This document shows positions 17,953 through 24,998 of a DNA stretch of 64,000 nt, piece by piece. Source of the stretch: Streptomyces xanthii (GTDB lineage Bacteria > Actinomycetota > Actinomycetes > Streptomycetales > Streptomycetaceae); the NCBI RefSeq assembly GCF_014621695.1, contig NZ_CP061281.1:558001-622000 (forward strand), in the 5' to 3' direction. Each line of letters opens with the position of its first letter. Position 1 is the first letter of the stretch. The position numbers and the translations under genes are program-made. The notes below the pieces were generated by a model. That model made no database searches. It was not told where the DNA came from and saw only the letters and a list, made by a program, of their open reading frames with translations.

Positions 17953-18717
17953 TCAGATCACCTCTTGTGCTGCGGCGAGGGCCCGCTCCCGGATGTTGCC
18001 GAACAGCTGCATCGCGGTCGCGGACAGGACGTCCTCGCCGCCGACGGTCCGCCGGTCCCCGCTGCGCGTGGGCGGGTCGTGGGGGCCCTGGACGGACGGC
18101 GGTGGGGGCGTCTGGCCCGGCATCACCAGGATGACCTCGCCGAAGCGTTTCACCCCGCCCTCGCGGACGACCATGGCCGCGTCCCGGGCGAGGTCCATAA
18201 GGAACACGCTCGCGATCCCGTCGAGGTCGCGGACCAGCGCCGGGACGGCCGTCGCCCCCTGGCTTCGGAGCAGCCGCCTGACGCCGGCCTCGAACCTGTG
18301 GGCGCCGGCCGCGGCACTCGGTCTGCGCGATGCACTGCGCCGGGGAGTGGGCACGATGGCCCCCTCGGCGTCGTACCGGACACCCAACAGGCCTCGAAAC
18401 GTCGGGCTGCGGACGTACCACTGGGTCCCGACCTCGAGTTCGACGTTCCGGTCGATCGCCGCGATGAGGTCTCTGGGGAGCAGTTTCGGCCGCGCCTCCT
18501 CCGCGGCCGCTCTCCGTGCACCGTCGATGATCTCCGTCAGCACGGTGCGCGTCACCGCCCCGGCGGCTCGCGCGGCCGCCCGGGAGACATGCATCGAGGT
18601 GACTCCCCTGAACACCGTCTTGACGAGCGCAGGCTTGAACGGCGGGGCGTCCGGGGCCGGGGCGGTCTTGGGGGCACCACTGTCCAGATGTACGGGCTGT
18701 ACGGGCTGTGCGCTCAT
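17953..18717 (-). CDS. Putative histone-fold doublet protein
   Basis: I do not recognise this 254-residue protein as a named bacterial family, but its pattern is that of a histone fold. Residues 27-39 give a short helix, 45-75 a long helix (SRAAARAAGAVTRTVLTEII), 76-80 a loop, and 81-90 a short helix introduced by PKLLPRDLIAAI, closely like H2A (TRIIPRHLQLAI). The next bases encode RNVEL where H2A has RNDEEL. A basic linker (RRSASRRPS) follows. A second helix-long helix unit is seen at 142-184, and RRTVGGEDVLSATA (222-235) resembles a histone loop 2/helix 3 after a proline-rich insertion. It follows fabV by 63 bp on the same strand. DNA binding is an inference. Confidence 0.6.
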   Translation of the reverse strand: MSAQPVQPVHLDSGAPKTAPAPDAPPFKPALVKTVFRGVTSMHVSRAAARAAGAVTRTVLTEIIDGARRAAAEEARPKLLPRDLIAAIDRNVELEVGTQWYVRSPTFRGLLGVRYDAEGAIVPTPRRSASRRPSAAAGAHRFEAGVRRLLRSQGATAVPALVRDLDGIASVFLMDLARDAAMVVREGGVKRFGEVILVMPGQTPPPPSVQGPHDPPTRSGDRRTVGGEDVLSATAMQLFGNIRERALAAAQEVI

Positions 18718-18780
18718 CGGGCGAAGTGCTCCCTGCCGTATCGGAGTTGCCGGAGGCTCACACTTCACCACGCGGGCCGT

Positions 18781-22220: not shown

Positions 22221-24188
22221 TCAGGCGGTCGTCCGCCCCGGTTCCGTACGGGACTGCGGCCCTTGCAGTTCGGCCAGGCCCTGCCGGGTGGCGGCCAGGA
22301 CGACCCGGTCGGTGGGGCGCAGGACGTAGCCGGGGTGCAGGCGCCAGATGAGACCGGTGGCGGGGGCGGGGTTCTCCTCGTCGGGCGAGGCGGCGAGGTC
22401 GGGCCGGCGTTCGTCCGGGGCGGCGGAGTCGATGGCCAGCACCCGCCAGGCCCCGGGCCGGAACGACTCGGCGACGGTGCGCCCCTCCAACTGGGGGTGC
22501 CCGGCCACGTCGAGGGCGGCGAAGAGGAGCACCTTGCGCTCGACCGAGATGGCTCCCAGGACCTGGCGGCCCATCATGGCGCCCGCGAAGGCGGGCGCGG
22601 CGAGCGTGGTGACGCTGCGGCTGCGGGTCAGGGCCCGGGGGTGGGCGGCGCGCAGGGTGCGGTAGACGGCGGTGGCGAAGGCGTCGTCGTACAGGCGCAG
22701 GGAGACCCGCAGGTCGGGTTTGACCGAGCGGGCGTACAGGGCGGCTTCGAGGTTGGTCGTGTCGCGGCTGGTGAGAGCGAGCAGGGCGTGGGCCCGGTGG
22801 ATCTTGGCGGCTTCGAGGACGCCCTCGTCGGTGACGTCACCGAGGATGGTGGGCACGCGCAGGCGGCGGGCGAGGGGGACGCCGCGGGCGTCCGGGTTCT
22901 CCTCCACGCAGACGACGGGGACGCCGAGTTCGTGGAGGCGGGCGAGGACGCGGGTGCCGATCTTGCCGAGGCCGAGCAGGACGACGTGGCCGGACAGTCC
23001 GCGCGGCGGCCGGCGCAGGGCGGAGGCGGTCCGGAACGTGCCGAGGGCTTCCAGGACGGCGGCGAGCAGGACGGGCAGCAGCAACAACCCGGCGAGCCCG
23101 GTGAGGAGTTGGAGGACCTGCCGGGTGACGGGTTCCCCGATCGCGGGGTCGTCGATGGCGAACAGGTCGAGCAGGGTGAGGTATCCGGCGCGCAGCGGGT
23201 GGGGTTCGGTGGTCGCCCAGGTGGCCAGAGCCAGGCCGAGGACGCAGGCGACGAGCCCGGCGAGCGACCAGCGCAGCCGGCGTGAGAAGAGCGAGCCGAT
23301 CGGCAGGCCGCGACCGGACAGGCTCCGCCGGGCTCGCCCCGGGGGTGCGGGGGTCACGGCGTCGAGGACCACGGTGCCGCGTCCGGTGGTCGCGGCGACG
23401 GTGCGGTCGTCGGGCAGGAGCAGGGGCCCGTCCTGGCCCGAGGCGTCAGAACCCTCGGTCCCCGCAGGGTCGTTGGTGGTGGAGGACAGCAGGGCGAGCG
23501 TGCACATGCCCGGGTCGGCACTCTCGCCCCGGCCCGGCGGGCGGCGCTCGGCGGCACGCAGCAGCAGCCCGTCGGCCTGGATCACCTTGCTGGTGCCCGC
23601 GACGACGGTTCCGGCGAGCGCGGGCGCGGCGGTGTCGGCGTCGGACAGGACGGTCGTGGAGGTGTCGAGGGCGTCCGGATCGAGCCCCGGCTGTGCCAGA
23701 GCGGCGGCCTGGTCGAGGAGTTGGGCGAGGTGCTGGCCGAGCTTGCGGTCGTAGAGCCGGATCACCAGGCGCAGGCGCGGGTTGAGCCGTCGGGCGGCCA
23801 GCGCGGCGCGGATGTTGACCTCGTCGTCGTCATGGACCAGCGCGAGCGCGTCCGCCCGCCCGGCTCCCGCCTCGGTCAGCGTGTCCTCGTCGAGGACCGG
23901 CGCCTCCAGGACCCGCGGCGCCTGCCCGGCCAGGGAGTCCGTCGGGGCCGGAGCGGTCCGGTTCATCGCCGCCTGGAGCCGGCTGAGCAGCGCGGCCGCC
24001 CGCATCCGGCCCGCGCCGCCTCCGGGGTCCTGCTCCGGGGTGGTGCGGGCCGAGGGGACGACGACGGTGACCTGCGTGCGATACAGCTGGCGCAGCTCGG
24101 TGGCCAGCCGCTCGGCGAGCGCGTCGTCACCGCACACGATCATGTGCGCGGGCCGGGGCGGATGTGTGGACTGGTGGGGAAGCGACAC
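22221..24188 (-). CDS. NAD-binding (TrkA-N) ion-channel-like membrane protein
   Basis: The roughly 655-residue protein has two TrkA-N/RCK modules, one at the N terminus (MIVCGDDALAERLATEL) and one in the C-terminal half (HVVLLGLGKIGTRVLARL). Between them are two membrane helices around the position of a channel pore. The loop where a K+ channel has TVGYG reads TLLDLFAIDDPA, so no potassium filter is visible. The plan resembles CASTOR/POLLUX-type channels. The start is uncertain: GTG 24188 keeps the PAHMIVCG lead, while ATG 24143 is shorter. The same frame runs on into the broken methyltransferase upstream. Confidence 0.8.
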   Translation of the reverse strand: MSLPHQSTHPPRPAHMIVCGDDALAERLATELRQLYRTQVTVVVPSARTTPEQDPGGGAGRMRAAALLSRLQAAMNRTAPAPTDSLAGQAPRVLEAPVLDEDTLTEAGAGRADALALVHDDDEVNIRAALAARRLNPRLRLVIRLYDRKLGQHLAQLLDQAAALAQPGLDPDALDTSTTVLSDADTAAPALAGTVVAGTSKVIQADGLLLRAAERRPPGRGESADPGMCTLALLSSTTNDPAGTEGSDASGQDGPLLLPDDRTVAATTGRGTVVLDAVTPAPPGRARRSLSGRGLPIGSLFSRRLRWSLAGLVACVLGLALATWATTEPHPLRAGYLTLLDLFAIDDPAIGEPVTRQVLQLLTGLAGLLLLPVLLAAVLEALGTFRTASALRRPPRGLSGHVVLLGLGKIGTRVLARLHELGVPVVCVEENPDARGVPLARRLRVPTILGDVTDEGVLEAAKIHRAHALLALTSRDTTNLEAALYARSVKPDLRVSLRLYDDAFATAVYRTLRAAHPRALTRSRSVTTLAAPAFAGAMMGRQVLGAISVERKVLLFAALDVAGHPQLEGRTVAESFRPGAWRVLAIDSAAPDERRPDLAASPDEENPAPATGLIWRLHPGYVLRPTDRVVLAATRQGLAELQGPQSRTEPGRTTA

Positions 24189-24273
24189 TGGATCATGGTG
24201 CTCGCCCCGCCGGGCCGAAGTCCACCGGAGGCCCCTCTTCCGGCCCGACGGCCCTCGTGTCGCGCCCGGTCGC

Positions 24274-24998
24274 TCAGGTCGCGCGCAGCAGGACGAGCGA
24301 GCCGGTGTACCTCGCTGCGCCGCGCGCTCGGCTCCGGGGCGTGGGACGAGGATGTCGAACTCCTGGCGGGCGCCGTCGTCGATGAAGCTCCATGCGGAGC
24401 AGGCCTGCCGGGCGGCGGGGTCGAGGAGCATCTCGGGGCGCCCGTAGTACGCCGCGTTGAAGCCGTCGGCGCAGTCCAGCGGGATGGGGACGGGCTGCAC
24501 GGAGACGGTGCCGCCGAGCGCGTCGGCCAGGGTGTCCAGGCGCGGGTGTCGCCGCGCTTCGGCGTCGAGCACGTCGGGGGCGTAGTCGTAGAGCCAGAAG
24601 TCGCGCACGCGCGCCGGGTCGCCGGTGGGGACGACGACGGGGCCGTTGGTGACCCGGCGCATCTCCCGCAGGCCCGCGACCGCGTCGGACACTTGGTGAA
24701 CGATGAAAAGGGCCATGGAGGCGTCGAACTGTCCGTCCTCGAAGGGGAGGTCCTCGGCGACGGCGTCGATCGCGGTGGCGAGTTCGGCCGGGCGCCGGGC
24801 TCTCAGGGCGAGGGAAGGCTCGACCGCTGGGACGGTGTGCGCGTCGGTCTCGTAGGAGCCGGTGCCGGCACCGACGTTCAGAACGTCGTGCGCGTCCCCG
24901 AGGGCCCGGGCGACAGTGCGGGCGATACGTACGTCGGAACGGCGGCAAGGTGGTCGACCTCGCCCGCGCTTGCTGCCGTCGTAGGTGCGCATGACCAT
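24274..24998 (-). pseudogene. Frameshifted class I SAM methyltransferase
   Basis: One frame begins MRTYD at 24992 (or 24998) and carries VLNVGAGTGSYE (SAM motif I), LPFEDGQFDASMALF and REMRRVTNGPVVV, through to SAWSFIDDGARQEF. It then leaves the homology and runs into the channel gene without a stop. The expected family C terminus (YTGSLVLLRAT followed by a stop at 24274) is found in another frame. The piece linking the two is shorter than in intact members. The gene has therefore suffered a frameshift, probably with a deletion. A sequencing error alone would not explain the missing segment. Confidence 0.65.

Follow-up and report, generated by a model that had tools for sequence, protein, structure and literature searches.

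A putatively DNA-binding double-histone-fold protein, probably of an undescribed kind, in Streptomyces and close relatives

The 64,000-nt window analyzed here (Streptomyces xanthii, contig NZ_CP061281.1, positions 558,001 to 622,000) contains a gene for a basic protein of 254 amino acids (computed isoelectric point 10.8), which is predicted to form two consecutive histone folds that are packed as a pseudodimer in one chain. The protein is a member of a bacterial double-histone-fold family that is distinct from the DUF1931 proteins in its charge, its length, and its kept DNA-contact residues. The family has a narrow and scattered distribution, and residues of an arginine-aspartate (RD) clamp and of the second loops are conserved. 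It probably represents an undescribed kind of histone-like, DNA-binding protein in Streptomyces and close relatives. A preliminary description of the gene had proposed an “H2A-like doublet”.

In the AlphaFold2 model, fold 1 consists of helices 29-39, 46-72, and 81-91, and fold 2 of helices 143-152, 159-185, and 227-237, followed by a C-terminal helix at 240-253. The predicted alpha-2 and alpha-3 helices have 27 and 11 residues, respectively, in each of the two folds. The five models obtained from the deeper alignment were alike in score, with both folds near 90. DSSP assigned bridge residues at 43-44, 224-225, 78-79, and 156-157; with the pairing read from their order, they form the paired bridges between loop 1 (L1) and loop 2 (L2) of the two folds that characterize double-histone-fold proteins. 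In fold 2, alpha-2 and alpha-3 are separated by a proline-rich insert, with values of the predicted local distance difference test (pLDDT) <50 at residues 190-217. The preliminary description had assigned the segments 27-95, 157-184, and 222-235 to two folds, the second one broken by a proline-rich insertion, and had suggested structure prediction of the 254-residue chain as a check. The predicted helices agree with these segments, both folds are present in the model, the insertion is at the proposed place, and none of the matches listed was a confident one to an unrelated helical family.

To characterize the type of each fold, family profiles were scored against five reference histones. The fold 1 profile gave 16.8 bits for H2A, compared with 7.6 for H4, 5.1 for H3, 5.0 for HMfB, and 3.8 for H2B. 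The best shuffled histone reached 11.1 bits (5,000 shuffles made, 4,620 reported with a score). In a profile search of the PDB, the best 60 of 180 matches were all H2A or H2A fusions (best E 0.0017), and the fusions were matched within their H2A part. The H2A likeness of fold 1 is therefore beyond chance. When the profile of the whole family was used, the best 60 of 176 PDB matches consisted of histones and histone fusions only, with a lowest E of 0.0012. The motifs quoted earlier in favor of H2A, PKLLPRDLIAAI at residues 77-88 and RNVEL at 90-94, are present.

The second fold is histone-like, and its type is loose. With the insert kept, the fold 2 profile retrieved two PDB matches (best H2B, E 0.21), and the values for H4 and H2B, 9.3 and 8.8 bits, were lower than that of the best shuffle, 10.3. 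Without the insert, H4 and H2B were near-equal scorers at 11.7 and 10.7 bits, narrowly above the best shuffle at 9.9, and 38 of 43 PDB matches had a histone fold, the remaining five being 6b7l, 7rmx, 6rxv, 5lwl, and 5e7p. Fold 2 is thus histone-like without a firm type. The top PDB entry was 8grq_D (E 0.012), the score of which is inflated because the entry contains two H2B copies; the best single-copy entry was an H4 (E 0.10), followed by an archaeal histone (0.29) and further H4 entries (from 0.58). The helix at 240-253 is predicted in the place of an alpha-C helix, and the motif RRTVGGEDVLSATA is indeed found at residues 222-235. Splicing out the insert in 12 members led to a PF00808 match in one and to a PF00125 match in none of them. 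In summary, “H2A-like” is appropriate for the first half of the protein and not for the second, which is nearer to H2B/H4, so that “H2A-like fold plus H2B/H4-like fold” is the better wording. A recent tandem duplication is not supported, since comparing the profiles of the two folds gave no match (hhalign probability 0.1%).

Conservation was analyzed in a family alignment of 93 rows. In loop 2 of fold 1, R76 is present in 92, K or R at position 78 in 93, and D83 in 92 rows. In loop 2 of fold 2, the respective numbers are 92 for R223, 93 for T224, and 92 for D229. Positions 76, 83, 78, 43, and 156 were mapped onto known histones via the alignment and known structures, an equivalence that we assume, and we take the spacing of R76 and D83 to be that of the arginine-aspartate clamp of the archaeal histone. 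The arginine-rich linker of the preliminary description is likewise present, and its residues R127 and R131 are conserved. The WY..SPTF segment between the folds, outside both of them, is among the most conserved parts of the protein and matches no recognized motif.

At E<=1e-3, 422 related proteins were found, and the identity of the window protein to the 120 listed is 74% or lower. In GTDB contigs, 100 family places were confirmed, of which 80 were kept. The carriers for which a name is given belong to Streptomyces, Kitasatospora, Actinacidiphila, Embleya, and Yinghuangia, and one further record reads “Actinobacteria bacterium”. The preliminary description had proposed a search for orthologues in other Streptomyces. 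In the family tree, the window protein has an outlying position and a long branch. The A2 alignment contains 39 representatives under 83% identity, selected from 87 sequences; A4 and A5 exclude L072 and L078, which have disrupted second halves, and A5 adds 56 of the 120 listed proteins. A duplicate of the window locus (L001) was excluded from the tree and from the substitution analysis.

The only Pfam match of the window protein is a sub-threshold one to TAFII28, a histone-fold TFIID subunit family (E 0.007, residues 27-89), while PF00125 and PF09123 gave no match at E<=10, and an NCBIfam scan gave none. The best member scores compared with the respective cut-offs are 22.8/26.4 bits for PF00125, 25.1/27 for TAFII28, and 17.2/21.8 for DUF1931. 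Cut-off-based Pfam surveys would therefore probably miss the family, because the members scanned score just under the cut-offs. Some relatives carry the automatic names “histone H3/H4” or “Histone H2A/H2B/H3”, so that a histone resemblance is already on the database record, and relative P0102 has a precomputed PF04719 label despite the sub-threshold family scores.

Matches were found in four of 396 genomes in a phylum survey, all of them in the genus of the window, in four of 72,556 plasmid records, and in none of 50,697 phage records. In the class-level search, the sole hit beyond the genus, G037 (E 7e-4), was rejected, since it is the antisense reading of an ABC-transporter ATPase gene. When short proteins with a single fold were sought with the fold 1 profile, 19 proteins at E<=10 were obtained, namely 10 named Streptomyces, two named “histone H3/H4”, and seven unlabelled ones. 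Searches of this kind depend on shared words or patterns, and distant relatives may escape them. In the S. xanthii genome, a single copy was detected with the fold 1 profile, next to two matches at the level of chance (E 0.7 and 1.3); PF00125, PF00808, and this profile revealed no additional histone, a search of limited reach because both Pfam models miss the gene itself. In the Streptomycetaceae genomes surveyed, full-length copies on contigs >7 Mb are located in the outer 10% at either end in seven of 12 cases (P 0.004), and in eight of 16 cases with four further such contigs from the GTDB places (P 0.007), contig ends being equated with chromosome ends. Partial copies (L112-L117) occur in three genomes, G426, G428, and G261, and in the latter two they are extra copies. 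Streptomyces griseomycini has two members, L025 and L029, which fall into different halves of the midpoint-rooted tree (the root is weakly supported), which indicates that paralogues or separate gains occur. The ratios of nonsynonymous to synonymous substitution rates (dN/dS), estimated with a simple counting method for 3,461 of 3,741 pairs, have medians of 0.32-0.45 in the folds and of 0.95 in the proline insert (residues 194-217), showing that the folds are constrained and the insert is not.

The gene had been located correctly at 17953..18717, and the strand, which had not been given, is minus. The coding part extends from 18717 to 17956, followed by the stop codon at 17955..17953. An alternative in-frame start upstream, a GTG at 18771, would give a longer open reading frame (ORF); judging from the relatives and from the conserved leader, the ATG at 18717 is the likely start. 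In the window, an enoyl-CoA reductase gene ends 63 bp before the start of the histone gene. The neighbors differ between loci, while a short leader and about 70 bp behind the stop codon are common to many of them; the leader motif was found in 44 of 81 loci. A promoter-like pair, TTGAC-N16-19-[GT]AGGAT, is present in 13 of 81 upstream regions, compared with 0.005 expected from shuffles. It is located 70-76 nt upstream of the histone ATG (L004, L005, L006, L010, and nine further loci) and is absent upstream of the window copy. In 12 of 81 loci (L028, L029, L046, L058, L081, and seven others), a same-strand ORF cluster is located about 230 bp upstream; all of these loci belong to one clade of the family tree, and the three members scanned carry ALF repeats (PF03752). 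An operon was considered and rejected, as no neighbor recurs widely and this largest cluster is limited to one clade. For the same reason, no functional link was drawn from the neighbors, some of which may have been missed, since the gene finder recovered the histone gene itself in 66 of 81 loci. Elsewhere in the window, at 22221-24998 on the minus strand, a frame of 925 amino acids matches TrkA_N twice (best match at 672-780) and contains a methyltransferase domain close to the N-terminus; it may comprise two genes run together. The features of the gene are listed in Table 1.

Table 1. Positions of the gene and its features in the window, with the basis of each assignment
Feature	Window positions	Strand	Basis or remark
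Whole gene including stop, predicted double-histone-fold protein, 254 aa	17953..18717	-	ORF, conserved family, AlphaFold2
Fold 1, residues 26-92, H2A-like	18442..18642	-	AlphaFold2 and profile matches
Loop 2 of fold 1, residues 76-83 (R76, K/R78, D83), RD clamp and basic residue	18469..18492	-	Alignment of 93 rows
WY..SPTF segment after fold 1, residues 98-107	18397..18426	-	W100, Y101, F107 in 93/93 rows
Arginine-rich linker, residues 123-134	18316..18351	-	R127 88/93, R131 91/93; pLDDT mostly <50
Fold 2, residues 140-253, H2B/H4-like	17959..18300	-	AlphaFold2 and profile searches
Proline-rich insert in loop 2 of fold 2, residues 193-217	18067..18141	-	Low confidence, fast evolving
Loop 2 of fold 2, residues 222-229 (R223, T224, D229)	18031..18054	-	Alignment of 93 rows
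Spacer of 63 bp with conserved leader	18718..18780	-	Enoyl-CoA reductase gene ends directly upstream

The function that we regard as most likely, with about an even chance of being right, is that of a one-chain histone pseudodimer acting as a DNA-binding accessory nucleoid-associated protein. The long alpha-2 helices would mediate a head-to-tail packing of fold 1 and fold 2, and loop 1 of either fold would be bridged to loop 2 of its partner. The basic protein would bind double-stranded DNA across its alpha-1/loop-2 face, aided by the arginine-rich linker, and would bend, coat, or locally compact it; variable regions of the chromosome might thereby be silenced or insulated. We infer the DNA binding, the oligomeric state, and the nucleoid role; the first of these is plausible, with indirect indications from the isoelectric point and the conserved basic residues. 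Several observations weigh against this function. The basic residues, the conservation of which had been proposed as a test, are kept at R76, K/R78, and R223, while position 222, the clamp arginine of fold 2, is Arg in only 31 of 93 rows. The L1 sprocket positions are mostly not Arg either: His occupies position 43 in 85 rows (Arg in three) and Thr position 156 in 75 rows (Arg in 10), so that the loop-1 sprocket arginine is mostly lost. No Pfam histone-fold cut-off was reached by any of 39 members or of 10 proteins scanned. A match was found in only 23 of 249 Streptomycetaceae genomes (in G426 in pieces only), indicating that the gene is dispensable, and the overall median dN/dS of 0.52, obtained without a control gene, seems fast for a housekeeping nucleoid protein.

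Histone domains that do not package DNA exist in SOS, SPT3, and perhaps DUF1931 proteins. A true double-histone-fold protein could accordingly be a protein- or lipid-binding scaffold or a regulator, which we consider a minority possibility in view of the strong basic charge and the kept loop-2 basic residues and RD clamp of fold 1; DUF1931-type doublets, in contrast, lack the DNA-binding residues of histones, as stated in excerpts of PMC11390915 and PMC13088155. A horizontally spread accessory gene of conflicts or mobile elements, encoding a histone mimic that binds DNA and either inhibits invading DNA or gives protection from it, and kept or lost strain by strain, would fit the scattered presence, the partial copies, the enrichment in the outer 10% of the contigs, the leader that moves with the gene between unlike neighborhoods, the fast evolution, and the link to ALF-repeat genes in one clade. 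The virtual absence from phage and plasmid records and the lack of a constant neighbor, as far as the rough gene finder can tell, make it improbable. That the protein is an unrelated helical one, its histone likeness being a coincidence or a prediction artefact, is very improbable. Only one of five models had a good score in a first, shallow run (58.6; others 38-42), no Foldseek E-value against the PDB was below 0.001, and the sequence E-values are modest and under the Pfam cut-offs; however, the five models from the deeper alignment have similar scores with both folds near 90, each half retrieves histones independently, and the clamp and loop residues are in register.

A bolder view, which we regard as rather unlikely, is that of a laterally spread histone doublet that is related to the eukaryotic/giant-virus H2A-H2B line more than to known bacterial or archaeal histones, and that would wrap or bend DNA without H3-H4, as half of a nucleosome acting on its own in a bacterium whose linear chromosome is compacted in spores. 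Among bacterial histones, those studied in depth consist of a single fold, and the doublets described so far (DUF1931) are considered not to be DNA-binding. The Streptomyces protein looks like a third type: it is a doublet with a basic charge, its helices are of full length, its first half is similar to H2A, and residues of loop 2 are retained. As Streptomyces is culturable and genetically tractable, it is testable with ordinary strains of the laboratory whether bacteria use H2A/H2B-type histones, and the origin of the H2A-H2B pair becomes a second testable question.

We take the kingdom Bacillati to include Actinomycetota. DUF1931-type doublets from Bacillati are described in the excerpted text of the review of double histone folds PMC13088155, which names neither Streptomyces nor Actinobacteria. 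Both names are also missing from the excerpted main texts of the bacterial-histone surveys PMC10627809 and PMC11390915, the former of which combined searches at curated cut-offs for PF00125, PF00808, and DUF1931 with jackhmmer. No literature on a Streptomyces histone-fold protein was found among the matches listed, supplementary tables and subscription papers being outside the scope. Compared with DUF1931 doublets (1wwi of Thermus thermophilus, 1r4v of Aquifex aeolicus), the Streptomyces family is longer and basic, has a linker and an insert, and keeps the loop-2 basic residues and one RD clamp; PF09123 was matched by one of 39 members at E<=1, and its cut-off was missed. HBb (Bd0055) of Bdellovibrio shares the bacterial histone fold, the loop-2 threonine, and the clamp aspartate. 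Bacterial singlets likewise show no conservation of the L1 sprocket arginine (PMC10627809, in part). The alpha-3 histones of bacteria are described as singlets in which alpha-3 is truncated and alpha-2 is shorter (PMC11390915, in part), whereas the Streptomyces protein has two folds with a full alpha-3 of 11 and an alpha-2 of 27 residues (predicted), and thus does not belong to the HBb-type histones. The double histone 1f1e of Methanopyrus kandleri has 151 residues and therefore no room for a long linker and an insert; the fold 1 profile prefers H2A to HMfB, the archaeal histone that was scored, by the values given above.

There is also a likeness to the eukaryotic H2A-H2B pair and to giant-virus doublets: fold 1 retrieves H2A, and the helix that ends fold 2 can be aligned with the terminal part of H2B. 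H2A-H2B-like doublets have been reported for klosneuviruses (PMC9145170, in part), and histone-like proteins of giant viruses, including an H2B/H2A fusion, lead the predicted viral matches (best E 1.9e-4). The identity to eukaryotic H2A-H2B and to giant-virus doublets (Melbournevirus 9cvt, 7n8n) is 10-17%, and the order of the two halves differs, being H2A-like followed by H2B/H4-like in the Streptomyces protein and H2B-H2A in the marseillevirus doublets.
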